DNA of 35,472 nucleotides, taken from NCBI GenBank assembly GCA_947483645.1, contig CANKLS010000006.1:1-35472 (forward strand), given 5' to 3'. Origin of the DNA: Bradymonadales bacterium (GTDB taxonomy: Bacteria; Myxococcota; Bradymonadia; REDH01). A program made the translations under genes and the position numbers. Position 1 is the stretch's first letter. Every line of letters begins with the position of its first letter. Shown here in pieces: positions 7,273-32,165 of the stretch. The notes beneath the pieces were generated by a model, which did no database searches, was not told where the DNA came from, and was given only the letters and a program-made list of their open reading frames with translations.

Positions 7273-9471
7273 TCAGCGCGGGCCGATGTTCTCGTACCGC
7301 CACTCGCAGATTCCCTCGTTGAGGTTCGTGCCGCAGCCCGCGTCGTTCCAGGAACGGTTCGGGTTGGTGGTGTTGCCGTAGAGCATGGCGCAGGTTCCGT
7401 CGCCGCTCGGCTCGCTCGGACCCCAGTTGTCGTAGCCCGTCAACGGGCGCCCATAGGCAACGAAGAGCCAGTTTCCGCTCGAACGGTCGGCGCCAATCCA
7501 TGCCTTGCCGAAGTCCCAGGGCCGGTTGTCGAAGATCCAGTTGTTCTCCGTACCGTCGCCGATGGTCACGAGGTCCATGTTGGCCTGCGCGCGGCAGCGG
7601 TCCCGGTGCTGCTGCCAGGTGCGATTTCCGTTGACCTGACAGTACATGTAGCCGCGAACGGTGGAGCCATTCCCTCGTCCGGAGCAGCCCGGGGGGCAGA
7701 CGGCTTCGTCGGTCGCGCCATTGCCGTTGTTGTCCCAGCCGTCGCAGATTTCGGGCGCGTTGGGCGCCACATACTGCGTCGCATCGTTCGGGTCTCCGGC
7801 CGCGGTGACGCGACCACCGGGGTTGCTGCAGGCCGTCACCACATCGCCGCTGTTGCCCCAGCCGTCGGCATCGGCATCTCGGTAGAAGGCGGTGGTCACT
7901 CCCTCATCTGTCGAACCGTCGCAGTCATTGTCGGTTCCGTCGCAGATTTCTGCGGCGGCAGGGTTGCGACTGCCGTTGGCATCGTCGCAGTCTCCGGTAT
8001 CGACTGCAGCTTCGACCGATGCGGCGCAGCCGGTGGTGAAGGTATCGGTGGCCGGGGCGCCCGAGACAGCGAAGTTGTCGTCGTCGGCATCGAAGTAGCA
8101 GCCGTAGAAGCCGTTGCAGTTCTCGTCGGCGGCCGGCGAGACCACCTGCTCAGACGCTCCGGGGTTGATGTCGGCGCGGCTGTCGTCGCAGTCGAAGGTC
8201 GCGTCGCCACCAACGCCGAAGGTGTAGGAGCCGCCTCCGATGAGCGAGGCGGTCGGCTCGAGCGCGCACGGCACCCCCGGAAGGTCAAAGACGGCCGTGC
8301 CGTAGCCGTCGCCATCAAGGTCGCGGTAGCAGGCCCATACCCCATCGCAGTCTTCGTCGGCGTTGTTGCCCGGCAGCTCCGGCGAGGCAGGGCCGATGGC
8401 AGCATCGGCATCATTGCAGTCGAAGCTCGGACCCGCTGCGAGCGCCTCGCCGGCGTCTGTGCAGTCGGCGTCCACGCTGACCACGGTCAAGTCCGGACGG
8501 GCCGACACACCGTCGCCATCGCCGTCGAGCAGGCAGAGTTCGCCCCCGTCACAGTTCTGGTCAACCTCATCACCCGCAACCTCCTCTGCTCCGGGCGCGA
8601 CGGCTACATCGGCATCGTTGCAGTCGTCACCCGCAGCTACCGCCCCGTCCGGCTGCTGGCAGCCAACGATGGGAGCAGCCGGGTCGCCGTATCCGTCGCC
8701 GTCGGCGTCTCGGTAGAAGGTCAGCGTGTCGGTTGCGCCTTCATCGATTTCGCCATCGCAATCGTTGTCTTCGCCGTCACAACGCTCTTCGGAGAGGTCG
8801 ACGACCAGCTCGCAGACGAGCAGCCCCTCGCAGGCAAACCGGCCCGTCGCGCATCGGCCCGAGAAACCGGTATCGCAGAGGTCGCCCACCTCCGGCACGC
8901 CCTCGTCAACGAGCGTGTCGCAGTCATCGTCCTGGCCGTTGCACTGCTCCGTCGCCGCAGCGCTCACCAGCGGGTTGCTGTCGTCGCAGTCTGCGAAGGG
9001 GCAGCCCGGACCGCGGCCGCCGCCGTCTCCGTCAAAGTCGAGGCAGAGCGACGCATCGACGCAGACCCGCTCCGCATCCGTGCCCGGCAAGACCACGCAA
9101 TCCTCATCCACATCACAGTCGCGGTTCGAAAGGCAGGGCGCCGTACAGACGCCTGTCCCATCATCGGCGATGGCTAGGCAAAGGTCGGAGGCACAGTCAT
9201 CGTTCGAGGCGCAGGGCTCGCCGGAGAGACCACCGCCTGCGCCAGAGCCGTCCGGCACAACGTCGAGAGCGACATCGACGGCCGTATCTGGAGCGTCCGG
9301 CGCTCCGGTGTCCGCAACTTCTGCGCTATCCTCGTCAGCGTCGGCGGCTACGCCACTACCGGACGCATCACCCGTGTTGTTCCCCGATCCCGAACTTGCC
9401 GACACGCAGCCGGCAGCGATGGAAAGAAGTGCAGGCGCAACGCTCAGAACCCATCTCTGGTCTCGATACAT
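7273..9471 (-). CDS. MopE-type Cys/Asp repeat lipoprotein with C-terminal C-type lectin domain
   Basis: 732 residues from ATG 9471, which has GGAGG about ten bases upstream. The signal peptide ends in SIAAGC (lipidated Cys22), then an acidic linker. A Cys-rich segment (CASNDDCASDLC, CTAPCLSNRDC) follows. Then come many copies of the MopE-like metal-binding motif, such as CNGQDDDCD, CDGEDNDCDGEIDEG and CDGTDNDCDGSTDEG, alternating with DADGDGYGD-type calcium-binding loops. The last 120 or so residues look like a C-type lectin domain: a GYMYCQV start, WIGADR, EPSGDGTCAML and the WND motif followed by a Cys pair. Family knowledge points to a surface protein binding calcium or copper and perhaps a glycan; the ligand is unknown. 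It follows the PEGA kinase gene by 57 bases on the same strand, so it may be in its operon. Confidence 0.85.
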   Translation of the reverse strand: MYRDQRWVLSVAPALLSIAAGCVSASSGSGNNTGDASGSGVAADADEDSAEVADTGAPDAPDTAVDVALDVVPDGSGAGGGLSGEPCASNDDCASDLCLAIADDGTGVCTAPCLSNRDCDVDEDCVVLPGTDAERVCVDASLCLDFDGDGGGRGPGCPFADCDDSNPLVSAAATEQCNGQDDDCDTLVDEGVPEVGDLCDTGFSGRCATGRFACEGLLVCELVVDLSEERCDGEDNDCDGEIDEGATDTLTFYRDADGDGYGDPAAPIVGCQQPDGAVAAGDDCNDADVAVAPGAEEVAGDEVDQNCDGGELCLLDGDGDGVSARPDLTVVSVDADCTDAGEALAAGPSFDCNDADAAIGPASPELPGNNADEDCDGVWACYRDLDGDGYGTAVFDLPGVPCALEPTASLIGGGSYTFGVGGDATFDCDDSRADINPGASEQVVSPAADENCNGFYGCYFDADDDNFAVSGAPATDTFTTGCAASVEAAVDTGDCDDANGSRNPAAAEICDGTDNDCDGSTDEGVTTAFYRDADADGWGNSGDVVTACSNPGGRVTAAGDPNDATQYVAPNAPEICDGWDNNGNGATDEAVCPPGCSGRGNGSTVRGYMYCQVNGNRTWQQHRDRCRAQANMDLVTIGDGTENNWIFDNRPWDFGKAWIGADRSSGNWLFVAYGRPLTGYDNWGPSEPSGDGTCAMLYGNTTNPNRSWNDAGCGTNLNEGICEWRYENIGPR

Positions 9472-9528
9472 CTTCCGCTCCCTCCTTCGCGACGGCACCC
9501 TGCGCAAGTGCGCCGGCCGCTACCCAAT

Positions 9529-11358
9529 CTACTCCGTCAGAAGTGGATACTTTCCGTCGGCGGCCTTCGTCTTCGGAAGCGACTTTCGGGCCGGAGCCAC
9601 CGCAGCAGGCGCAGCGGACGCAGGCTTGGGGGCAGCGGCAACGGCCGGCTTCACCTCCACCGGCGGATTGGCACCCGACCTGACGAAGATGGCGCGCCTC
9701 ACCGTCGGTGCACCCGCACGACGGAACTCAAACACGAAGGTCTTGTTCGCTGCGAGTTCGACCTGCCGCAGCGGCGTGACCCCAAGCCGGTTGCCGGCGA
9801 TCCAGACCTCCGCACCCGCCGGTTCCGAGACGAGATCAACCTTGCCGACCGGTACCGCCGGCGAGAGCTGGAGCTGAATCTCGAGCACCTCGTCACTGTC
9901 GAGCGTGAAGGGGAAGAAGATGGTCTCGTAGCCTGCGCGCTCTAGGCGGAGGCTGTGCTCCTTGCCGAGCGCAAGCGACGCGATGTCGGTAGGGGAGGCT
10001 GCGCCGCCGAAGAGGCCATCTACGAAGAGCGTAGCGTCGGCCGGCTCGTAGACAACGCGGACTGCGCCCGCCCCTGCAGCCGGCACGACCGCTGCCAACG
10101 GAGCGGCCTCCAGCGCGGGCTGCGGCGCCACGGCGACGGGCGCTGCCGGTGCGACAGGCCTCTGCCGCGTCACAGCGAAGACCGCGAGCCCCGCGAAGAC
10201 CAGGGCAACCGCAACGGCAACTGCCGTCTGGCGCTTCGACGCGGCAAGCGCCGCATCGCCTGCCGGCCGCAAAGCGACGGCAACACCCAACGCGGACGGA
10301 ACTGCCGGAGCTGCCGGCGGAACCTGCGCGGGCGCCTCGGCAACCGAAGGAACCGCCCCGCTGTAACGGAAGTTCGCCAGGTCGACGGTAGACTCGGTCT
10401 GGACCGGAGCAGCCAACACCTTGAGCGCGACGGCCTGATCCTCTTCCAACCGGGCCGAAAAGCCCGCCGAAACCTTGGCGCCAAGCGCGTTCCAAGCCGC
10501 TGTGCTCCGGCCGGCGAGCCAGCGCTCGAGCTCCTCCGCAACCCGCTCCGCAGAGGCAATCCGCTCCTCTGGCTCCCGCTCGAGCAGCTGCATGACAAGC
10601 GCGTCAAGCTCGGCCGGTACCCCTGCGCGAAGCTGCGACGGCGGCGCAATCTCCTCCTCCGTGATCGCACGAAGGCTGGCCATGTAGCTGTCGCGCGTAA
10701 AGAGGCGACGCCCGGTCAGGAGCTCGTGAAAGACGACGCCGAGCGCGAAGAGGTCGGACCGCCCGTCGAGCTCGTGGCCGCGGCATTGCTCTGGCGACAT
10801 GTAGGCGGTCTTTCCAGCCGTCTTGGTGCTGCCAGGCTCTGATGCTGCCGTCTGCGCCACGCCAAAGTCAAATAGCCGCGTCCTTCCATCCACGCCAACC
10901 AGCAGGTTGTGGGGCGAGATATCACGGTGAACGACCGCGAGCGGATGCCCCTCACGATCGGTCGCGCGGTGTGCCGCTGCAAGACCATGCGCGGCGTCGG
11001 CGATGCATCGGGCTGCCTCATCAGCGCTCAGCGCGCTCTCACCGCCCTGCGCTACAAGCTCGTCGAGGTTGGCCCCCGCGACATACTCCAAAACAAGAAA
11101 GGGACGACCTTCGGCGACATCGGCATCGAGGACGCGGACCACGTTGGCATGTTCGATACGCCCGCCGATGCGCCCCTCCTGCAAGAACAGTGCGCGCGTC
11201 GCCTCCTGCTCCAAGAGATGGGGGAGAAGCGACTTAATGACGACAAGCCGTTCAAAGCCGCCCTCGCCTTGCCGAACCGCGAGGAAGAGGTCGGCCATGC
11301 CGCCCGTGGCGAGCTTCTTGGCGAGACGATAGTTGCCGAACGACTTGTTGAAAATCAC
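9529..11358 (-). CDS. Transmembrane Ser/Thr protein kinase with PEGA domains
   Basis: 609 residues from GTG 11358, which has GAGG six bases upstream; a TTG at 11370 would leave almost no leader after the predicted promoter. The Hanks-type kinase domain covers about residues 10-280: VVIK (ATP-binding Lys), HRDISPHN (catalytic Asp near 146), DFG (Asp near 164) and a SPEQ activation-segment end. HRDISPHN in place of HRDxKxxN is common in myxobacterial kinases. The P-loop is glycine-poor (LATGGMAD). One transmembrane helix lies at about 377-397, then an Ala/Pro linker and two PEGA repeats (about 433-497 and 505-560), expected outside the cytoplasm. It probably phosphorylates proteins in response to an envelope signal. 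The neighbours are a two-TM protein upstream and the lectin lipoprotein downstream. Confidence 0.92.
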   Translation of the reverse strand: MIFNKSFGNYRLAKKLATGGMADLFLAVRQGEGGFERLVVIKSLLPHLLEQEATRALFLQEGRIGGRIEHANVVRVLDADVAEGRPFLVLEYVAGANLDELVAQGGESALSADEAARCIADAAHGLAAAHRATDREGHPLAVVHRDISPHNLLVGVDGRTRLFDFGVAQTAASEPGSTKTAGKTAYMSPEQCRGHELDGRSDLFALGVVFHELLTGRRLFTRDSYMASLRAITEEEIAPPSQLRAGVPAELDALVMQLLEREPEERIASAERVAEELERWLAGRSTAAWNALGAKVSAGFSARLEEDQAVALKVLAAPVQTESTVDLANFRYSGAVPSVAEAPAQVPPAAPAVPSALGVAVALRPAGDAALAASKRQTAVAVAVALVFAGLAVFAVTRQRPVAPAAPVAVAPQPALEAAPLAAVVPAAGAGAVRVVYEPADATLFVDGLFGGAASPTDIASLALGKEHSLRLERAGYETIFFPFTLDSDEVLEIQLQLSPAVPVGKVDLVSEPAGAEVWIAGNRLGVTPLRQVELAANKTFVFEFRRAGAPTVRRAIFVRSGANPPVEVKPAVAAAPKPASAAPAAVAPARKSLPKTKAADGKYPLLTE

Positions 11359-11389
11359 GGGCGGCCTCAAGCATGCGTTGAATTGCCCG

Positions 11390-11428: not shown

Positions 11429-12073
11429 CTAGACGTCGTTCCAGCCTGTCCCGACCTGCTTGACGCCCACCATCATCGGCCGCGCCAACGCCATCGCGAT
11501 GGAGAAGGCCTCTTCACGCATGAAGGTCGAGGGGATGATGGGCCAGACGGCGCCGCTCTCGAGCCGCACGAAGACACCCGCTCCTTCGACCTTGGCACCG
11601 GCCGAGGCGCCCGGGACCGCGATGGCGCGGGTCGCGTAGATGACCTCGGAGATCCGGTCGAGCTCGATGGGCGTGCTGCCCGACAGGTCCATCTGCTCCG
11701 GGTTCTCGCGCAGCCGGAGGAACCCATGGTTGAGCGACAGCCAGGCGAGTGGCATCTGCCAGGTGCGGGCAAACTGCTCGGCCCGACGCCAGGCCCAGTA
11801 GGCGAGCGCCCAGACCGGCGCCGACGAGAGCAGCACCCAGGTCTTCTCCCAGCCTCCGGCACGCAGCGAGACGAAGACCAACGTTCCGGCGATCAGCGCG
11901 GCACTCACCGCAATCGAGCGCAGCCGGCCCGCGCGCGGGTCGCTACGCCGCTCCACCACGTAAAGTTCGCCGCGCTCAGGACGCACCACGAGCGGACGCT
12001 CAATCAGCGCCTCGTAGGCAACCTGGCCGAGCGCGGCCCGCTCACGGATGGTCTCATCAGAATGGTCGTTCAT
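11429..12073 (-). CDS. Membrane protein of unknown function, two TM segments
   Basis: 214 residues from ATG 12073, four bases after the stop of the upstream lipoprotein gene; the longer frame runs through that gene. I do not recognise the family. Two hydrophobic helices stand close together at about residues 53-72 and 79-100 (around IAVSAALIAGTLVFV and WVLLSSAPVWALAYWAW). A soluble C-terminal part of about 100 residues follows, with a beta-rich look and the stretch LSLNHGFLRLRENPE. The layout recalls bacterial PH-like membrane proteins, but I cannot support that call. Its tight linkage to the small lipoprotein gene suggests a joint job in the envelope. Confidence 0.7.
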   Translation of the reverse strand: MNDHSDETIRERAALGQVAYEALIERPLVVRPERGELYVVERRSDPRAGRLRSIAVSAALIAGTLVFVSLRAGGWEKTWVLLSSAPVWALAYWAWRRAEQFARTWQMPLAWLSLNHGFLRLRENPEQMDLSGSTPIELDRISEVIYATRAIAVPGASAGAKVEGAGVFVRLESGAVWPIIPSTFMREEAFSIAMALARPMMVGVKQVGTGWNDV

Positions 12074-12077
12074 GCGT

Positions 12078-12701
12078 TCACGGGGCCGCTGTCTCGCGCT
12101 CTTCCACGCAGAGCAGCGGGAGGTCGCGCATGTGGAGGTGCCAGTCGCTGCCCTCGCGAATCCAGACAATCTTCCGAATCTTGCCTGCCGCATCGACAAG
12201 GAAGAGCTCCTTTCGGGCATCCGACTCGTGCTCTTCGAGATAGGCAGTCCGGAGCGCCGAGCCTGGCGGAGCATCGGCGTCCGCAATCGCGCCGTCGCCC
12301 AGGTCAGCCGAGCCATCTACAATCCGCTGCACGCCAGGGAGCAGGAGCAGCCGAACGGGTTCGAAGCCGAAGGTCCGCCGCGCGATGCGCGTCTCGCCGA
12401 CCCCAAGAACAGCCGCAACGGTTGTCCCGTCGCCCTCGCCTAGCAGGAGCCGGGTCTCCGAGGAGAGCCGGTCGCCGGCCGTCTTCCACGCCTTTCCCTG
12501 CAGTTCGGTGTAGAGTTGGAGCGTCGCCTGCTTCGCCGCCAGGAAGTTGGCCGTGTCGTTGCGCTCGACCGCGACAGGGTTGAGTTCAACATGCTGCCAG
12601 GTCGACTCGGGCGGGAGCGGAGGGAGTTCATACTGGCTCGCACCGCAGCCAGCCGAGAGGAAAAGGAGGGCGACAAGCGCGATACGGCCGGTGTTCAGCA
12701 T
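12078..12701 (-). CDS. Small lipoprotein of unknown function
   Basis: 207 residues. The signal peptide MLNTGRIALVALLFLSAGC ends in a lipobox (Cys19), with Gly next, so outer-membrane sorting is likely. The mature part starts with a Pro-rich segment and contains a helical stretch (FLAAKQATLQLYTELQGK). The end, with LFLVDAAGKIRKIVWIREGSDWHLHM, has the pattern of a small NTF2-like or SnoaL-like beta sheet; this is only an impression. The gene lies 31 bases after the stop of the PDZ/AAA+ gene and 4 bases before the next gene, all on one strand, so it is probably part of an operon with them. Confidence 0.75.
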   Translation of the reverse strand: MLNTGRIALVALLFLSAGCGASQYELPPLPPESTWQHVELNPVAVERNDTANFLAAKQATLQLYTELQGKAWKTAGDRLSSETRLLLGEGDGTTVAAVLGVGETRIARRTFGFEPVRLLLLPGVQRIVDGSADLGDGAIADADAPPGSALRTAYLEEHESDARKELFLVDAAGKIRKIVWIREGSDWHLHMRDLPLLCVEERETAAP

Positions 12702-12732: not shown

Positions 12733-15300
12733 TCAAACAGATGGGGGACCGGCGTCGGGCGTTGGTTCCACGACTGCCGCCGTCCGAGCAAGCGCTGCCA
12801 CCGTAAGCAGCGTGCCCTCGACCGCAAAGCAGGCGCCGAGCAGAACGGCCTCAAGCTCGGCATGATTCCCGCGCAGCGGGAGCCCCTTGAGATACTTCAT
12901 GCCGTCCGCCGACACCCGCAGGGGCGGCCGCGCAAAGCGTGTTGCAGCCTGCTGAAGGGTACGAGTCACCAGCCGCTCGACCTCGCGGGGACGAGCGCGC
13001 AGCGGGGTCCGTTCTAGCACCCGCTCACCCACAAACTTGAGTATTGCGTTGGGCACGACCGTTCCGCCGTGATCGGCCGACCAGGGCGCATGCTCGCACA
13101 GGATGACACGGACCGGCAGCCGCTCGAGCCGTCGCAACAGCGCCTCGAGCAGCCGCGGCGGCAGATGGCCGACAGAACGGAACGCGACGGTGCCGCCGTG
13201 CGCCGCCTTCAAGAGACCATCGCGCCCGGTGCCGGCGTCGCCAAAGAGCGTCGAGGCCAGCGTCGCGTCGTCGAAGGCCGAGACGTCCACCTCGATGAAG
13301 GGAGCGTCACGGCGCTCCGACGCCAGATGGAGCGCGCGCGCCACCAGCCCCTTGCAGGTGCCAGGCTCACCCAACACGAGCCAAGCGGCGTCGCCAGCAG
13401 CAGCGGCCAGCAGTTCGGTCCGCTCCTCCACCGACCAGAAGTCCGACCGTTCCAGATCGGCTGTAGCGTCGGTGCGGATGCGATCGTGCCGCATCGCCGC
13501 TCCGGACTCCGGGCCAGCGCGGCCAGCCGTGGTCAAGGTCGCCTTCACAGGCTCCGGTTCCTGCGCCTTGGGCTTGATGGCTGAGGCAAGGTGGCCCGTC
13601 GCCAGCATGATGAGCTCCGAGTAGGAGTCGCCGCTCGAAAGGCTCGGCAAGGCCGCCTCCAGCGTCGCCATGAGCCCATCGGGCGGGGGCGCGGGCCCGT
13701 CGCGGAAAATGACAACCATGCGAGGAACCGCCCGCGGCATCCGCTCGTCGATGACCCGCATTGCTGCGAGCTCGCCGCCGACCGCCGGCTCCACCTCTTC
13801 GTCGAAGAGGGCCTCGAAGCTCACCTGCTCGCGCAACCGAAGCAGCGTCTCGCTCGTTGCAGGGTCGAGACGGTCCACCCGCAATTCGCGTATCACATCG
13901 AGCGCGACTGGTTCGGGAGGAGGCTCGGGCTGCGCCTCAACCGCCTCATCTTCGTCGAGCGGCTCGTCCTGAGGTCCCTCCCGCCACGCGGGTTCGGGCT
14001 CGGGCAGCGGCTCGAGGTCGACCAGAATTCCCACCTTCGCGGGGAAGGCTGCCACCGCAACCGAGTAGCCTGGCGGGAGCTCCGACTGAACTCGGTTCAG
14101 CCAGGCCCGAAGCGTCTCGAGGCCACCCGACTCGCCGGCCAGCACCGTCGCGTCGGCCAGCGCTCCGGCGGCCGTCGCACCAAACATCACCGTACCGAGC
14201 AGGCTCGAGGTGCCCTCGCGGTGAAACAGAATCAGACCCACCGTTACCAGGTCAAACAGCAGCGCCAAGCCTGCCATCGCCCATCGCCGGTCACGCCGCT
14301 CCGACCGCCCCTTACGCTCGATTGCATCCATGCCCCGAACCGCGACCAGCAACAGGCAGATGGCAATTGCCGCAGATTCGGCGCTCGCGAGCCAGCCCAG
14401 GCCACCTGCGCTCGCAAGCGACGAGGCCGTCGTGAAAGCAGCCAGCCCCAACGAGGCCACCGCAACAGAACCGGCAATCCAAGGTGCATTCCCCCCGCGC
14501 CAGCGCGTGCTCGCTGTGCGTGCAAGCGACAGCCCCAGCGCACGATGCAGCAGACCCAACGCCGCCGCCCAGAGCATCAAGCGAGGCGCCGCACCGCCGG
14601 AGGCCGCCACCGCAAGCGCCGACGTCCCGGCCAGCGTTACTGCAAAAAGCCACGGAATCGCCAGGTGACGCCGCCAGAGCCGCAGCGCCCGCTCGCGCAG
14701 CGTGAGGAGCAGCGTCGTGCCGGCGATTGCCGCAGTCAGCGCCCAGAGCACAGAGAGCAGCGTTGGACGGCTCCGCACCAGCGGCAGCGACCCTTCGGTC
14801 TTCTCACCGGCGCGCTGTACCGTCACCACGACCGCAGCATCACCAGCCTCGCCCAACATCCGCTCGAGCATGGTAAAGTCGACATCCGGAGGCGCAGGCC
14901 TGTCGCCAATCCGCACCACCTTCACGCCGGGCGCGAAAATCTCCTGCGACACCTGGCCCAGCGCGCCGCGCGCTACCGGAAAGTCCCGAACCCGCGGGGC
15001 CTGCGCCACCCGGATACGCACCGTCGACGCACGAACCTCCATCGAGATGATCGCGCTCAGCTCCGAGAACGAAGAGACGGCGATACCATCCACCGCCTCG
15101 AGCCGGTCGCCAATCGCGATCGCGGCATCCGCGGGAAGCCCAACGCGCGAGGTCACACGGAGGTGCTCGTCCACCATGAGCCCGCCAAGCGCCACAGGAC
15201 GACCGACCCAAGCCAGCAGCATCGACAGGACGGCGGTCGCTACTGCGAGCACCACCGCGCTCTCCACGCGCATCAGGGGTCTGGTTGGCGACGGTTGCAT
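12733..15300 (-). CDS. Polytopic PDZ-domain membrane protein with degenerate NtrC-type AAA+ domain
   Basis: 855 residues from ATG 15300, with AGAGGG just upstream; an ATG at 15273 lacks such a site. Order seen: TM helix at about 14-33; a PDZ-like domain at about 45-105 (IAIGDRLEAVDGIAV); another exported segment to about 175; about seven TM helices between 181 and 385; an acidic Pro/Glu linker; and a C-terminal domain from about 603. This last part aligns by eye with sigma-54 activators: Walker A GEPGTCKGL (644-652), LFGDAGTG where LFGHEKGAFTGA is usual, GGTVAFRSVGHLP where GGTLFLDEIGELP is usual, and LRGNHAEL for WPGNVREL. So the sigma-54 contact loop GAFTGA is missing and the Walker B Asp-Glu is replaced by Arg-Ser. 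It is probably a membrane-tethered non-hydrolysing descendant that may still bind nucleotide. I know no described family with this order. Confidence 0.85.
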   Translation of the reverse strand: MQPSPTRPLMRVESAVVLAVATAVLSMLLAWVGRPVALGGLMVDEHLRVTSRVGLPADAAIAIGDRLEAVDGIAVSSFSELSAIISMEVRASTVRIRVAQAPRVRDFPVARGALGQVSQEIFAPGVKVVRIGDRPAPPDVDFTMLERMLGEAGDAAVVVTVQRAGEKTEGSLPLVRSRPTLLSVLWALTAAIAGTTLLLTLRERALRLWRRHLAIPWLFAVTLAGTSALAVAASGGAAPRLMLWAAALGLLHRALGLSLARTASTRWRGGNAPWIAGSVAVASLGLAAFTTASSLASAGGLGWLASAESAAIAICLLLVAVRGMDAIERKGRSERRDRRWAMAGLALLFDLVTVGLILFHREGTSSLLGTVMFGATAAGALADATVLAGESGGLETLRAWLNRVQSELPPGYSVAVAAFPAKVGILVDLEPLPEPEPAWREGPQDEPLDEDEAVEAQPEPPPEPVALDVIRELRVDRLDPATSETLLRLREQVSFEALFDEEVEPAVGGELAAMRVIDERMPRAVPRMVVIFRDGPAPPPDGLMATLEAALPSLSSGDSYSELIMLATGHLASAIKPKAQEPEPVKATLTTAGRAGPESGAAMRHDRIRTDATADLERSDFWSVEERTELLAAAAGDAAWLVLGEPGTCKGLVARALHLASERRDAPFIEVDVSAFDDATLASTLFGDAGTGRDGLLKAAHGGTVAFRSVGHLPPRLLEALLRRLERLPVRVILCEHAPWSADHGGTVVPNAILKFVGERVLERTPLRARPREVERLVTRTLQQAATRFARPPLRVSADGMKYLKGLPLRGNHAELEAVLLGACFAVEGTLLTVAALARTAAVVEPTPDAGPPSV

Positions 15301-15404: not shown

Positions 15405-17111
15405 ATGCATCCTCACCTTCGCATCGCTTTCGTCGCATGGCTCCTCGCTGCGCCCGCGCACGCTACCGAGCCGGCGCCCGATGCCGACCTCGCTGACGAG
15501 GAGCAGCTCGACGACAGCACCGATGCGCCACCGCCCCCCGACGAGCGTCCGGCCATCGACTCTCCCCTGACCTTTCGACAGATTGTCGACCCGGCCAGAC
15601 GCTCCGCCGGCTCTATCGCGCTCGGCAACACCTCCCGCGGCGGCCTCATCGACCCCGCCATGGTTCCCGACGCCGGCGAGTTCCACTACATCCTCCCCGC
15701 CCACCTCGGCCGACCGACCCACTACGGCACCGACGAACTCGTCGAACTCCTGCTCACCACCGCCGAGCAGGTAGCCACGGCCTTCCCCGCCTCGCGCCTG
15801 GCCGTCGGCAACCTCAGCGTCTTCGACGGCGGACACATCAGCTGGAGCCGCTCGCACAACTCCGGTCGCGACGTAGACCTCGGCTTCTTCCTCCGCGACA
15901 AGGAGGGCGCAGACCTGCCGCTCGAGACGCTCGTTCACATCCGACGAAGCGGCGCGGTTGCAGAGATTCCCGGCGCGACCTTCGATACCGAGCGAAACTG
16001 GGCCGTCGTCAAGGCGCTGCTCACCTCCGAGACCGCTAAGGTGCAGTGGATCTTCAGCTACGCCCCGCTCGAACGCATGCTCCTCGCCCACGCCACCAAG
16101 CTCGGCGAACCGCAGGCCCTCATCGACAAGGCCGCTACCATCATGCACCAGCCGGGCGATTCGGCACCCCACGATGACCACTTTCATGTGCGCATCTTCT
16201 GCACGCTCGACGACCGGCTCGAGGGCTGTCGCAACACCGGCCCCCGCCGCGAAGGTGTCCCCTCCTTCGACCGCGAGGTGGCGGCCCGCGCCCTCGAGCT
16301 TCTCCGCGGCACAGCCAGTTCCGACGCCGCCGTTGCACTGCAGTCTGCCCGGTTCCTCCACCGCCTCCAGCCTGAGAGCCTCGACGGACAACTCTTGGCC
16401 ATGGTGCCGCACGCCAATGCCGCGGCCCGCGCCGAACTGCTCGACCTCGCGGAGGAGCTCGGCGTCCGCCGTGGCGTGGCCCCCCTTGTGGCCCTCGCGG
16501 CATCCGACCCCGACCCGATGGTTCGCACGCGGGCCTTCCGGCTCGTCATCGCAAGCTCCGAAGAGGTAGCTACGCAGGCCACCCAGGCGATGTTGCTCGA
16601 GCCCGGACCATCGCTCGCTGACCAGACCCCAATCCGGCTTGCCATCGCACGCGCCAAAAAGGGTTCGGTCGATGGCGCCCTCATGCCGGGCTACATCGCC
16701 TCGCTCGGCGACAGCGATGCACAGGTGCGGCGCGAGGCAGGTCGCCGCATCTCTCACATCACCGCACGGCCCCACCCGCTCGACCCCGTCAATGCCACCT
16801 TAGCCGCCCAGCGCGAACAGCTGGTGGCCCACTGGCAGCAATGGTGGCGCGACCACCACAACGAAGACCGCGCAACCCGGGTCGCCGCAGCCTTTCGGGA
16901 GGCCAACCTCCGCGTGAAGAACAAGAAGGGTGACTGGGACGGCAAGGCCCTCGCCGAGGCCTGCAAGAGCCGCATCGAGGGGCTCTCCTTTGCGGCAAGT
17001 TCAAAGCTCGCCGAAATCACGGGCAAGCCAGACACCGCCGTCGATGCTACCCCGGAGCAGCGATACAACCACTGGCGCCCCCTCGTCCGCACCAGCAAGA
17101 AGCGCCGCTGA
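15405..17111 (+). CDS. mepA: MepA-like murein endopeptidase (M74/LAS fold) with HEAT-like C-terminal region
   Basis: 568 residues. A Sec signal peptide with cleavage after AAPAHA (about residue 20) sends it to the periplasm. An acidic Pro-rich linker precedes the peptidase domain (about 52-275). The zinc ligands of the LAS family are clear: SHNSGRDVDLGFF gives His151 and Asp158 (H-x6-D), and HDDHFHVRI gives the later H-x-H. Penicillin-insensitive endopeptidases of this family cut D-Ala-meso-DAP cross-links. After the domain come about 290 residues with HEAT-like units (DPDPMVRTRAF, DSDAQVRREAG) and a Trp-rich basic tail. E. coli MepA is about 270 residues, so the second half is an addition. 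It is divergent from the PDZ/AAA+ gene and converges on the DUF507 gene. Confidence 0.85.
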   Translation: MHPHLRIAFVAWLLAAPAHATEPAPDADLADEEQLDDSTDAPPPPDERPAIDSPLTFRQIVDPARRSAGSIALGNTSRGGLIDPAMVPDAGEFHYILPAHLGRPTHYGTDELVELLLTTAEQVATAFPASRLAVGNLSVFDGGHISWSRSHNSGRDVDLGFFLRDKEGADLPLETLVHIRRSGAVAEIPGATFDTERNWAVVKALLTSETAKVQWIFSYAPLERMLLAHATKLGEPQALIDKAATIMHQPGDSAPHDDHFHVRIFCTLDDRLEGCRNTGPRREGVPSFDREVAARALELLRGTASSDAAVALQSARFLHRLQPESLDGQLLAMVPHANAAARAELLDLAEELGVRRGVAPLVALAASDPDPMVRTRAFRLVIASSEEVATQATQAMLLEPGPSLADQTPIRLAIARAKKGSVDGALMPGYIASLGDSDAQVRREAGRRISHITARPHPLDPVNATLAAQREQLVAHWQQWWRDHHNEDRATRVAAAFREANLRVKNKKGDWDGKALAEACKSRIEGLSFAASSKLAEITGKPDTAVDATPEQRYNHWRPLVRTSKKRR

Positions 17112-17124
17112 AACAGGCTAGGGA

Positions 17125-17640
17125 CTAGGTTAGACCCTTGTTCTTCTGCACCCGCTCCATCGCCCGCTCGTACTCAATGTTCCAGGCAGACGAACCCTCT
17201 TCCAGGTTCTTGATCTTGCTCCGGACCTCCTTGTCTACCTCGTCATCACGGCTCGCAGTGTAGCGCTTGATGATGGGGTTGATGCGGGCGCGGAGGTCGC
17301 GGTCGCTGCCGAAAATCTCCTCCACATGGTCAGACTGCATGAAGGTCTCGATGATCTGCGACACCAGGTAGTCAATGCCCTCGTCGCCCAGCTTGAACCC
17401 CTTCTCCTTCGCCAGCCGACGCTTCATCTGCATCTCGGCCTGCTTGCCATCGTTGAGCGTCAGGTCGCGCGCCTTCGTCGAAATCTCGCGGTCGGTCCGA
17501 ACATACTCGCGGAGCACGCCGACGATATCGAGCTCGGCCTCCTGCCGCTTCCCATTGTCGAGCTCCAGCAGCTCGGCCTCAAGCAGGGCCTTGATGATGT
17601 CGTTAGCAATGAGATTGAACTGGCCGCTATACAGACGCAT
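17125..17640 (-). CDS. DUF507 family protein
   Basis: 171 residues, start MRLYSGQFNLIANDIIKALL with GAGG upstream of ATG 17640. The opening MRLYSG followed by a helix, the charged helical body and the YLVSQIIETFMQSDHVEEIF segment fit the DUF507 family, which is found mainly in delta-proteobacteria-type lineages and has no assigned function. No signal peptide or membrane helix is present, so it is cytoplasmic. The protein looks all-helical and highly charged. It lies 86 bases after rimI on the same strand and may be the last gene of the engB run or have its own promoter in that gap. The stop faces that of the mepA-like gene, 13 bases away. Confidence 0.8.
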   Translation of the reverse strand: MRLYSGQFNLIANDIIKALLEAELLELDNGKRQEAELDIVGVLREYVRTDREISTKARDLTLNDGKQAEMQMKRRLAKEKGFKLGDEGIDYLVSQIIETFMQSDHVEEIFGSDRDLRARINPIIKRYTASRDDEVDKEVRSKIKNLEEGSSAWNIEYERAMERVQKNKGLT

Positions 17641-28631: not shown

Positions 28632-29603
28632 CTACTCCTCTGTTCCCTTGCTCGGTCCTGACGGCCGGCGCGCCCGCGGGTGGGCCCGGTCGTAGACCTG
28701 CATCAAGTGATCTACTGTCACATGCGTGTATCGCTCCGTCGTCCGAAGGCTTGCATGGCCCAGCATCTCCTGGATGGCACGCAGGTCTGCGCCGCCCTCC
28801 AGCAGATGGGTTGCAAAGCTGTGGCGCAGACCGTGCGGCGACACGCGGCGCACTGTTCCTGCCCGCGCCTGCGCTGCATCGAGCAGCCGCCGAACGCTCC
28901 GGTCGCCCATCCGGCCGCCGCGACTGTTCACAAAAAGTGCCCGCTCCAGCAGCCCCTCCCGCAACAGGAGATGGCGCACCGCCAGATAGCGCCGCACTGC
29001 CTCGATAGCCTTGCTGCCTACAGGCACCTCGCGCTCCTTGCGCCCCTTGCCCAGTACCCGGACCCAGCCCTCCTGGAGCGATAGGTCACCAAGGCTCAGC
29101 CCTACGAGCTCGCTCACACGGAGGCCGGCCCCATACATGACCTCCCACATCGCCAAGTCGCGGAGCAACGCAGGGGTCTCCTCCTCCGCCTGCGGCTCGA
29201 CCAGCTCCCGCGCCTCATCGGCCGTCAGAAAGGAGGCAAGCGGCTTCTTCTGCTTGGGCGACTGAATCAGCGCTGGGGTCGACTCTTTTACCTCTCCCCG
29301 CTTGAGCAGGAAGCGGTAGAAGCTCCGCATCGCCGACAGCCCCCGCGCTACCGAGGAGCGCTCCAGATCGCCCTGTCGGAAGGCGAGGTAGCGCCGCATC
29401 GAGGCAATCGTCACATCGTCCAGCCCCGCAGGCCGCTTCGCAGTCTCCTCGAACCAGCCAAAAAACGACCGGATGTCCCGTTCATAGCCGCTCAGCGTGT
29501 GCTTGGAGGCGTTCCGCTCTACCCGCAGGTAGTCGAGGAAGCGCCGGAGCGGGTCGACCCAGGCAGAGGCTGGCGTAGGGATGTTAGAGGGTACCTGTTC
29601 CAT
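28632..29603 (-). CDS. xerC: Tyrosine recombinase XerC
   Basis: 323 residues from ATG 29603; a GTG at 29624 could add seven residues. The N-terminal SAM-like core-binding domain (FLDYLRVERNASKHTLSGYERDI) is followed by the catalytic domain. Catalytic residues are visible in order: Arg in GAGLRVSEL, Lys in GKGRKER, HGLRHSFATH (His and Arg), GHASLRTTERYTHV (His and the nucleophile Tyr). With a partner XerD it would resolve chromosome dimers at dif at the septum. It sits after trmFO, as in Firmicutes, which favours XerC over XerD and over a phage integrase. No att-like repeats are seen beside it. Confidence 0.9.
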   Translation of the reverse strand: MEQVPSNIPTPASAWVDPLRRFLDYLRVERNASKHTLSGYERDIRSFFGWFEETAKRPAGLDDVTIASMRRYLAFRQGDLERSSVARGLSAMRSFYRFLLKRGEVKESTPALIQSPKQKKPLASFLTADEARELVEPQAEEETPALLRDLAMWEVMYGAGLRVSELVGLSLGDLSLQEGWVRVLGKGRKEREVPVGSKAIEAVRRYLAVRHLLLREGLLERALFVNSRGGRMGDRSVRRLLDAAQARAGTVRRVSPHGLRHSFATHLLEGGADLRAIQEMLGHASLRTTERYTHVTVDHLMQVYDRAHPRARRPSGPSKGTEE

Positions 29604-29641
29604 GGAGCGCTCGTCGCACGCCACCTAAGCGGGGGCAAGTT

Positions 29642-31090
29642 TCAGACGTGTGCGGTGGGTAGCGGACGGTCACCGAGCATGCGCTCGAGCGGTAGCCCCT
29701 CGGTCAGCGCCGGGTGCCGGTAGCTGCCCTGCAGAACCAGGCCGCGGCTGCGCGCCGGCGCAAGCCATGCCTCGAGGTCTGCCAGTGCCCGATGCGACAC
29801 GGCCTCGCGCCGGTCCGATCGTGCCGACCTCCCAGACTTCGCCTCTTCGACGGGCGGCATCATACCAAAGTGGATGTTGGTCGGATGGTAGGCCTTGGCA
29901 TCCATCGTCAGCTCGCCGGTCACGTGCCGGCGGAGCGCGCCGAGCGCCGTCGTCGCAGGCGGCAGGTCGAGCGGCTGGCCGGAGAGCTCGGCTGCCAGGA
30001 AGAGCGCAAGCAGCAGCCCGCTGGCCTGAGACTCCACATAGCCCTCCACGCCCGTGATCTGGCCCGCGAACCGCAGGTGCGGCGCCACCTTCATGGCGAA
30101 CCGATCGTCGAAGACCTCCGGCCCGTGCACATAGGTGTTCCGATGGACCGAGCCCCAGCGCATGAACTCCGCCTTCTGAAGCCCCGGGATCATGCGGAAC
30201 ACCCGTCCTTGGTCGGGCTGCTTCATACGCGTCTGAAAACCGACCAGATTGTAGGAGGTGCCTTCGCGGTTCTCCATGCGAAGCTGCACCACCGCGTAGG
30301 GGCGCCGGCCGGTGCGAGGGTCTTCGAGCCCCACCGGCTTCATCGGTCCAAACGCCAGCACCTTGTCGCCGCGCGACGCCATGACCTCGATGGGAAGGCA
30401 GCCCTCAAAGAAGCGAGCCTCCTCAAAGGCATGCAGCTCAGTGAGCTCCGCGGCCCGCAACGACTCCACAAAGGCGTAGTACTCCTCTTTGTTCATTGGG
30501 CAGTTGATGTAGTCGTCGCCGCCCCCCTTCTCATACCGGCTCTGCGCAAAGGCGATGCTACGGTCGACGGAGTCGGCATGCACGATCGGCGCCACCGCAT
30601 CGTAAAAGTAGAGCCGCTGCCGGCCCGTCATCGCGGTGATCTTCTCGGCGAGCGGCTGCGTCGTCAGCGGGCCCGACGCCACCACAAAGATACCGGCTTC
30701 AGGACCTGGAATCTCCGTAACCTCGCCGCGCACCACCTCGATGAGCTCCTCAGCGTGAACCACCTCGGTGACCCGGGCGCCAAACCGCTCCCGGTCGACG
30801 GCCAGCGCGCCGCCTGCGGGCACTGCTGTCTCTTCTGCAATCTGCATCAGAATCGACCCGGCACGCCGCATCTCCTCCTTCAGCAACCCGACGCCGTTCG
30901 TGAGCGCGTCGCCGCGGAAGGAGTTGCTGCAGACGAGCTCTGCAAAGTGCTCGGTCTGGTGGGCTTCGGAGGGACGCACAGGGCGCATCTCATGCAGGCG
31001 GACCGAGATGCCGCGGCGGGCGAGCTGCAACGCGAGTTCGGAGCCGGCCATGCCTGCGCCAACGATGGTAACTTGGGGCGTTCGGCTCAT
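29642..31090 (-). CDS. trmFO: Methylenetetrahydrofolate-tRNA-(uracil-5-)-methyltransferase TrmFO
   Basis: 482 residues from ATG 31090, with a purine-rich GGAG/AGAGAG region upstream. TrmFO makes m5U54 in tRNA with methylene-THF and FAD. The N-terminal FAD loop VGAGMAGSE (Gly11 to Gly16) is followed by the family marks CSNSFRGD, GLLKEEMR, YFYDAVAPIV, YINCPMNKEEY, FEGCLPIEVMA and FGPMKPVGLEDPRTG, and near the end HFGMMPP. The protein is somewhat longer than the usual 435-470 residues because of a C-terminal tail of about 45 residues (REAVSHRALADLEAWLAPAR). It stands between dprA and xerC. Confidence 0.95.
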   Translation of the reverse strand: MSRTPQVTIVGAGMAGSELALQLARRGISVRLHEMRPVRPSEAHQTEHFAELVCSNSFRGDALTNGVGLLKEEMRRAGSILMQIAEETAVPAGGALAVDRERFGARVTEVVHAEELIEVVRGEVTEIPGPEAGIFVVASGPLTTQPLAEKITAMTGRQRLYFYDAVAPIVHADSVDRSIAFAQSRYEKGGGDDYINCPMNKEEYYAFVESLRAAELTELHAFEEARFFEGCLPIEVMASRGDKVLAFGPMKPVGLEDPRTGRRPYAVVQLRMENREGTSYNLVGFQTRMKQPDQGRVFRMIPGLQKAEFMRWGSVHRNTYVHGPEVFDDRFAMKVAPHLRFAGQITGVEGYVESQASGLLLALFLAAELSGQPLDLPPATTALGALRRHVTGELTMDAKAYHPTNIHFGMMPPVEEAKSGRSARSDRREAVSHRALADLEAWLAPARSRGLVLQGSYRHPALTEGLPLERMLGDRPLPTAHV

Positions 31091-31154
31091 CTCTCTGCTC
31101 CAACCAGACGGGGCGAGCGAACTAACGCTCTGCCCTACCCGCCGCAAGTTGCCG

Positions 31155-32165
31155 TCATCGACAGGCTCGCCGCCACTGCGTCGCACGCCGCTCCAGCAGG
31201 CCGTCCATTTCAAGCTCTGTCAGCGCCGCCACCGCCTCGCCGCCCGCCAGCCCGGAGAGACGCACCACCTCGTCGCCCTCCTCCAACTCGGCGGAAAGCA
31301 CGGCCCAGAGTCGACTCGCAGCCTCCGACAACGCGACCGAGGGCACCGCAAAGGTCTGCGCTGCGGCTGGCGCCAGCGGCAGCGCCCGCGAGCCCTCCGC
31401 CAGCGACGTCCCAAGCAGCACTGCCAGCTCCTCTGCTCGTGTAACCACGCTCGCGCCTCGCCCCAGCAGGCCATTCGAGCCCATCGCGCTCGGCTCCCAC
31501 GGCGCACCCGGCAGCACCCCAACCGGCCGCTGCAGCCGGCGGGCAAAACCAGCCGTCGTGAGTGCGCCGCTCTGCACCGGAGCCCGCACCACGAGGGTAC
31601 CGAGCGAGAGCGCCGCGATGGTCCGGTTTCGCGCCACAAAGAGCGTATCGAAGGGCCGGCAGCCAAGTGGCTGCTCCGTGAGGATGCAGCCGCCTGCTGC
31701 AACAATCTCTGCAAAGAGGCTGCGATTCTGTGCCGGCCCTGCCTGCAGCATCCCGCCCGCCAGCACCGCGACTGTCGGCAGGCCGGCCCGCAGCGCCGCC
31801 CGATGCGCCATCGTGTCGATACCGCGCGCGCCGCCGCTCACCACGGTCAGCCCAAGGCGCTGCAGCGAATCGTCGAGCCAGTCGCGCAGCGCTGCCTCTT
31901 CTTCAGCCGCAGGGCTCCGCGTGCCCACCACCGCCACCGACGGCTGGTGCAGTACCTCCACATTGCCGCAGCCTACGAGCCAGTGGCCGGCTGGAAACCA
32001 GTGAAGGCCGAGCACCGATGGACGCATGACGAACGGCTTGCCCAGCCCCATTCGCTCCAGACGGGACAACTGGCGGGCAAGGTGAGGCGCCGCGCGTTGC
32101 TCCCGCTCCTCTGGCGGGCAGGCAGTGGCAGGCAGATTCCAATCAACGAAGGCAGGGTCGAACAT
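31155..32165 (-). CDS. dprA: DNA processing protein DprA
   Basis: 336 residues. DprA protects incoming single-stranded DNA and loads RecA in natural transformation. The Rossmann-like core shows VVGTRSP, SGGARGIDTMAH, AGG, TEQPLG, FVARNRTIAALS and RPVGVLPGAP, all typical. The C-terminal 60 or so residues (RLWAVLSAELEEGDEVVRLSGLAGGEAVAALTELEMDGLLER) form the winged-helix DML1-like domain. The N-terminal SAM domain of longer DprA proteins is missing or very short. No strong Shine-Dalgarno is seen before ATG 32165. The gene follows the cinA-like gene by 71 bases and precedes trmFO by 64. Confidence 0.92.
   Translation of the reverse strand: MFDPAFVDWNLPATACPPEEREQRAAPHLARQLSRLERMGLGKPFVMRPSVLGLHWFPAGHWLVGCGNVEVLHQPSVAVVGTRSPAAEEEAALRDWLDDSLQRLGLTVVSGGARGIDTMAHRAALRAGLPTVAVLAGGMLQAGPAQNRSLFAEIVAAGGCILTEQPLGCRPFDTLFVARNRTIAALSLGTLVVRAPVQSGALTTAGFARRLQRPVGVLPGAPWEPSAMGSNGLLGRGASVVTRAEELAVLLGTSLAEGSRALPLAPAAAQTFAVPSVALSEAASRLWAVLSAELEEGDEVVRLSGLAGGEAVAALTELEMDGLLERRATQWRRACR

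Follow-up and report, generated by a model that had tools for sequence, protein, structure and literature searches.

The window, that is, the whole stretch of 35,472 nucleotides analyzed here, carries a gene for an 855-residue membrane protein derived from bacterial enhancer-binding proteins (bEBPs). The features recognized in this gene (with residue numbers of its product) and in its surroundings are the following:

12733..15300, minus strand: membrane pseudo-bEBP, 855 residues
15202..15258, minus strand: first transmembrane (TM) helix, residues 15-33, from hydropathy; N-terminus inside by the positive-inside reading
14971..15192, minus strand: PDZ-like repeat 1, residues 37-110 (Pfam PDZ_6, 8.3e-4)
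14767..14967, minus strand: PDZ-like repeat 2, residues 112-178, degenerate (profile-profile comparison with repeat 1, E 2.3e-6)
14137..14766, minus strand: six or seven TM helices, residues 179-388 (helices in both models; six hydropathy peaks)
13576..14130, minus strand: conserved middle domain with no assigned fold, residues 391-575, presumably cytoplasmic
13006..13455, minus strand: pseudo-AAA+ domain, Sigma54_activat-like, residues 616-765
13348..13371, minus strand: Walker A GEPGTCKG, residues 644-651, with Gly649 replaced by Cys
13213..13248, minus strand: L1 region, residues 685-696, GAFTGA deleted
13168..13194, minus strand: Walker B remnant GTVAFRSVG, residues 703-711, acids replaced
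12778..13005, minus strand: AAA lid, residues 766-841, sensor II Arg lost
15405..17111, plus strand: Peptidase_M74 murein endopeptidase, divergent neighbor, with weak HEAT matches and the motifs SHNSGRD and DHFH
17125..17640, minus strand: DUF507 gene, conserved neighbor past the M74 gene
12078..12701, minus strand: predicted lipoprotein of 207 residues, next gene
11429..12073, minus strand: single-TM protein of 214 residues, next gene (a PH-like fold is a guess)
9529..11370, minus strand: Ser/Thr kinase with a PEGA domain, downstream

The presence of an NtrC-like module on a polytopic membrane protein, as advanced in the original prediction, was borne out. Judging from hydropathy and charge, the two PDZ-like repeats would lie in the periplasm. 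The PDZ_6 match of the window protein scores 19.5 bits, below the Pfam cut-off of 27; the same domain was detected at E ≤ 0.05 in 17 of 28 aligned family members (best value, 3.4e-6), four of the 28 being devoid of that part. Fold prediction of the N-terminal 590 residues yielded no usable domain (mean pLDDT 36). The middle domain, into which an acidic stretch is inserted in the window's genus, shows a residue pattern that prompted its consideration as a GAF domain; hhalign did not support this candidate (probability of 0.1% against a local 13-row GAF profile), and none of the 28 members has GAF among its listed Pfam families. Reading of the 855 residues by eye revealed no HExxH zinc motif of the kind found in PDZ membrane proteases of the RseP type, and Pfam returned no HTH match in the window copy.

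The fold of the C-terminal module was checked and is AAA+, as had been anticipated. At the level of sequence, both pore loops and the hydrolysis motifs are gone from this domain, and the P-loop remains. Indeed, the GAFTGA loop (L1) is lost in the window copy and in all 28 aligned members, on which all motif counts are based, and loop L2 is a gap in 28/28. The Walker B pair DE reads R-S in the window; across the family, the Asp column is occupied by R (11 members), Q (6), K (5), E (5), and D (1), and the Glu column by S (9), N (8), G (4), D (4), H (2), and T (1), the catalytic Glu being missing in all 28. No Arg occurs among the 26 residues listed for the first arginine finger of the 28 members, and, at positions whose alignment is uncertain, Arg is found in 6/28 at the second finger and in 3/28 at sensor II; both fingers and the sensor II Arg are missing from the window copy. 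The loss of sigma-54-contact and hydrolysis motifs, initially noticed in one protein, is real and conserved in 28/28 aligned members. Also confirmed was the retention of Walker A, with its Lys and a single Gly to Cys change: the first, second, and third P-loop Gly are present in 28, 27, and 25 members, respectively, the Lys in 27, and an Ala four residues further on in 28. The only two invariant columns of the whole-protein alignment, G644 and A654, are located in or beside the P-loop. By eye, the Lys is also kept in eight of nine complete f5 copies that came up subsequently and that, together with the G033 fragment, lie outside the 28-row counts. The 33 canonical rows, used only as ruler and outgroup, were picked for GAFTG, LDE[IV], and a length above 215, so that their intact motifs are by construction; in an alignment assembled without motif-based selection, the rows lacking the Walker B acids were either family members or fragments missing the region.

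The gene was found in 35 out of 57 genomes of the class, belonging to families f1 (5/6), f3 (8/8), f4 (1/1), f5 (17/21), and f7 (4/5). When the best three candidates per genome were scored, none was found in f2 (0/13), f6 (0/3), or 320 genomes of other classes, the outside matches listed being PDZ-sized. These absences constitute weak evidence because of the best-three scoring and because the profile search overlooked 10 of the 17 f5 members, which were recovered via their M74 genes. The first wider search used the N-terminal part alone as query and was not swamped by ordinary bEBPs; it reached f3, f4, and one f7 genome and, once these were added, further f7 and f5 genomes. Ten additional f5 members, one of them a fragment, were located next to M74 genes. 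The protein-database matches listed comprised five close relatives and a single remote ortholog, P0019, besides ordinary-looking bEBPs. P0019, annotated as a hypothetical protein of a deltaproteobacterium, is the protein of G006 (a third genus) and displays the order TM, PDZ, TMs, middle domain, pseudo-AAA+, and Fis HTH. The ortholog of G005, from another genus (L034:7853-9553), is devoid of PDZ repeats, has one clear TM, at its N-terminus, and keeps the pseudo-AAA+ domain, a C-terminal Fis HTH, and the M74 neighbor. In G003, the f1 genome without the gene, the contig starts within M74. Several candidates were discarded on reading: the weak outside-class matches in G178 and G287 are other PDZ proteins, and a 435-residue frame of G049 (L234), which scored 1.1e-8 against the family, looks like part of an ordinary bEBP.

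Decay of a single copy, which would have refuted the original prediction, is ruled out by losses common to relatives and by low dN/dS. The five close database relatives (66-91% identity) exhibit the same motif losses. The window copy and three others from its genus, one of which (L006) is a fragment, form six pairs, whose dN/dS values ranged from 0.03 to 0.14 in the AAA part and from 0 to 0.06 in the lid; linkers and tail were less constrained (up to 0.89). Purifying selection thus acts on the AAA part in the window's genus. Among the best three candidates per genome, none was found to combine the same domain order with intact motifs. Sigma-54 is present in the 11 genomes examined (11/11), which rules out its loss as the cause of motif loss in them. 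A quick unrooted tree, in which some branches are long, has a single branch (SH-aLRT 99) that splits the 28 members from the 33 canonical AAA domains; this topology fits, without proving it, a single origin of the pseudo-AAA+ family, which the common N-terminus also supports. The protein is a bEBP by descent and not a functional bEBP by membership, since it lacks several defining features.

A Fis-type HTH was detected in relatives from f1, f4, and f7, and weakly from f3. HTH_8 values were 3.5e-9 in G005, 4.1e-11 in G006, 1.1e-10 in G010, 4.8e-8 in G055, 5.8e-8 in G054, and 8.3e-7 in G057, borderline in G049 (0.053), and weak in f3 (about 0.1, with HTH_50 at 0.004 to 0.2). By eye, the C-termini of the f1 genus g1 and of the 16 f5 copies complete at this end carry no HTH, and none was detected among the 20 window ORFs scanned with Pfam. 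With labels taken from this by-eye reading, HTH presence on the tree needs at least two changes; the simplest story would be an ancestor with the HTH, which the window's genus and f5 then lost separately. Since the f1, f4, and f7 relatives (and weakly those of f3) keep the domain, this ancestor was probably a regulator that bound DNA while tethered to the membrane.

In the window, 104 bases separate the start of the gene from that of the divergent M74 gene. This head-to-head arrangement is shared by all five f1 genomes having the gene (f1 cases being the window, L001, L002, G005, and G006 and, by coordinates, G001, G002, and G004, the gene of the last being split across contigs) and by 17 f5 genomes, namely, 7/7 first-found members and 10 later ones that are biased toward the pairing because they were located through M74 genes. 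One gene intervenes between the two in f4, and no adjacent M74 gene was found in f3 (8 loci) or f7 (4 loci) within stretches of 3 to 17 kb. At three f3 loci (L141, L142, and L143), the gene adjoins, by eye, a ribosomal protein L3-like gene. Most genomes contain several M74-like genes, and among 20 M74 stretches fetched, a member was adjacent in 10 and no member was present in 10 (two loci in G057, second loci in G039 and G005, and one each in G055, G054, G049, G016, G035, and G043); L230 of G057 is an M74-DUF507 pair without a family member. The M74 gene of the window carries the metal-site motifs; SHxxGRD was present in 23/23 and DHFH in 13/23 of the M74 neighbors scanned. Binding of the PDZ part to the M74 C-terminus was considered and rejected, as no common PDZ-ligand-like end was found among the M74 C-termini. 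Downstream, the lipoprotein and the single-TM protein accompany the gene in the window and its genus. The single-TM protein was matched in 25/57 class genomes, and a lipoprotein relative adjoins it in 8/20 stretches outside G005 and the window's genus.

The architecture, the losses, the selection, the HTH-bearing relatives, and the M74 linkage in two families are all read from sequences. In many members of the class, a motor domain has joined a membrane protein and been stripped of its motor parts, often next to the gene of a wall-cutting enzyme, which suggests the reuse of an old switch for envelope surveillance. The preferred reading, which we regard as evenly balanced between right and wrong, is that of a polytopic membrane sensor derived from a bEBP, whose periplasmic PDZ-like repeats would read the state of the envelope or wall and whose pseudo-AAA+ domain would be either a switch that only binds or an assembly module, in both cases probably with nucleotide. 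The TM helices and the middle domain would join the two periplasm-facing repeats to the cytoplasmic pseudo-AAA+ domain, and the state sensed may be tied to the M74 endopeptidase. The cell wall is proposed as the target because of the putative periplasmic location of the repeats and the M74 neighbor in two families, and a binding-only module because the P-loop is retained and the hydrolysis motifs are gone. Relatives with the HTH would act through sigma-54-independent DNA binding, and the window's lineage, devoid of the HTH, by contacting a further protein at the membrane. As the M74 pairing outlasts HTH loss, the link may be more than local transcription control. Against the sensor reading, G005 keeps the M74 neighbor despite missing the PDZ part and most TMs. 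The f3 and f7 loci with no M74 gene beside them, the M74 genes without a family member, the sub-threshold PDZ score of the window protein, the lack of a common PDZ-ligand-like end, and the P-loop substitutions of some copies also count against it. The scaffold use originally envisaged stands only in part: a module without sigma-54-contact and hydrolysis motifs agrees with it, but the HTH-bearing relatives indicate that the protein was probably not a scaffold originally. The envelope link that it proposed gains backing from the M74 neighbor in f1 and f5.

Canonical bEBPs (NtrC1, PspF, FleQ, NifA) share with the family the AAA+ and lid fold, the P-loop and, in several relatives, the Fis-type HTH. 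They differ from it in that the family has a polytopic membrane N-terminus and lacks GAFTGA, L2, the Walker B acids, the arginine fingers, and the sensor II Arg, and in that the window copy has no HTH. CadC and ToxR typify membrane-bound one-component transcription factors; like the HTH-bearing relatives, they join a periplasmic signal part to a cytoplasmic DNA-binding part, but they have other folds, whereas the family has a pseudo-AAA+ domain in between and the window copy no HTH. MepA is an endopeptidase of the M74 type. According to PMC8996183, E. coli Prc (a PDZ-protease, as a title cited there has it) controls DD-endopeptidases together with NlpI, and MepA rises less than 2-fold without prc; this control offers a parallel, but no protease domain is known in the present family. 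GAFTGA-less bEBPs acting at sigma-70 promoters, namely Caulobacter NtrC, R. capsulatus NtrC, and V. cholerae "VspR", are described in PMC10274813. They share the L1 GAFTGA deletion, and some are reported there not to need ATP hydrolysis; those proteins, however, carry a receiver with a conserved phosphorylation site, whereas the proteins studied here sit in the membrane and lack far more of the AAA+ motifs. Of the two features that delimit the sigma-70 group, L1 loss and an HTH, G005 and G006 have both and the window copy has L1 loss only. Three bEBP-type AAA domains (L103, L119, and L134) lack GAFTGA but have the Walker B acids and are possible sigma-70-type regulators; as these have lost GAFTGA alone, that loss is not special, but the near-total motif loss is. 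In PspF, the Walker B mutation E108Q tightens ATP binding and leaves <1% ATPase activity, and the mutant is hexameric (PMC4132715). By analogy with this mutant and the GAFTGA-less NtrC proteins, and given the kept P-loop, a static AAA-derived membrane switch may be proposed.

Among the alternatives, it is possible, if doubtful, that in the window's genus and f5 the bEBP fold has left transcription altogether and forms a membrane nucleotide-sensing pseudo-ATPase, which would couple the energy or second-messenger state to the murein endopeptidase via the PDZ part. Rather unlikely is a plain protein-binding platform that binds no nucleotide and keeps the P-loop only for its fold. The third P-loop Gly is Cys in the window and the G002-like copy (L002 10001-12565) and Ala in P0006, the Lys is Arg in G049 and G017, and the remaining nucleotide-site motifs are lost, all of which would suit such a platform; however, few columns of the family are as conserved as those of the P-loop Gly and Lys, and the other motifs drift. 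A transcription regulator in all lineages, with a partner protein supplying DNA binding in the window's genus, is a distinctly unlikely alternative: the HTH of G005, G006, f4, f7, and weakly f3, and the divergent layout with M74 in f1 and f5 argue for it, but the M74 pairing persists in the f1 genus g1 and the 16 f5 copies whose complete C-termini have no HTH, and the Pfam scan of 20 window ORFs yielded no HTH domain. An active ATPase with unusual catalytic residues, to which the acidic residues that f7 and f4 retain in or next to the Walker B position might point, is highly improbable in view of the missing catalytic Glu (28/28, with Asp in 4), the missing L2 (28/28), and the scarcity of Arg at the fingers and sensor II. 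A relic heading for loss is hardly credible: many motifs are gone, two lineages have lost the HTH, and G005 lacks the PDZ part and most TMs, but the AAA part and lid are strongly constrained in the window's genus and the gene is present in 35/57 class genomes.

Precedents exist for membrane regulators, for pseudo-ATPases, and for GAFTGA-less bEBPs taken singly; their combination, its spread over several families of one class, and the endopeptidase link did not come up among the papers listed by full-text searches covering few subscription journals, so that earlier descriptions may exist. bEBPs are known as transcription motors, and the living relatives of this family show stepwise change: membrane-bound, with the motor lost, and with the DNA-binding domain lost in two lineages still beside a cell-wall hydrolase gene. 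Under the preferred reading, the conversion of an AAA+ motor into a static switch could be tested in this family, which would also provide a candidate envelope-sensing system.

Elsewhere in the window, positions 7273-9507 encode a protein that combines a C-type lectin domain with six metal-binding motifs of the MopE type, and a tyrosine recombinase adjoins a GidA-like gene at 28632-31213, a pair that looks ordinary.
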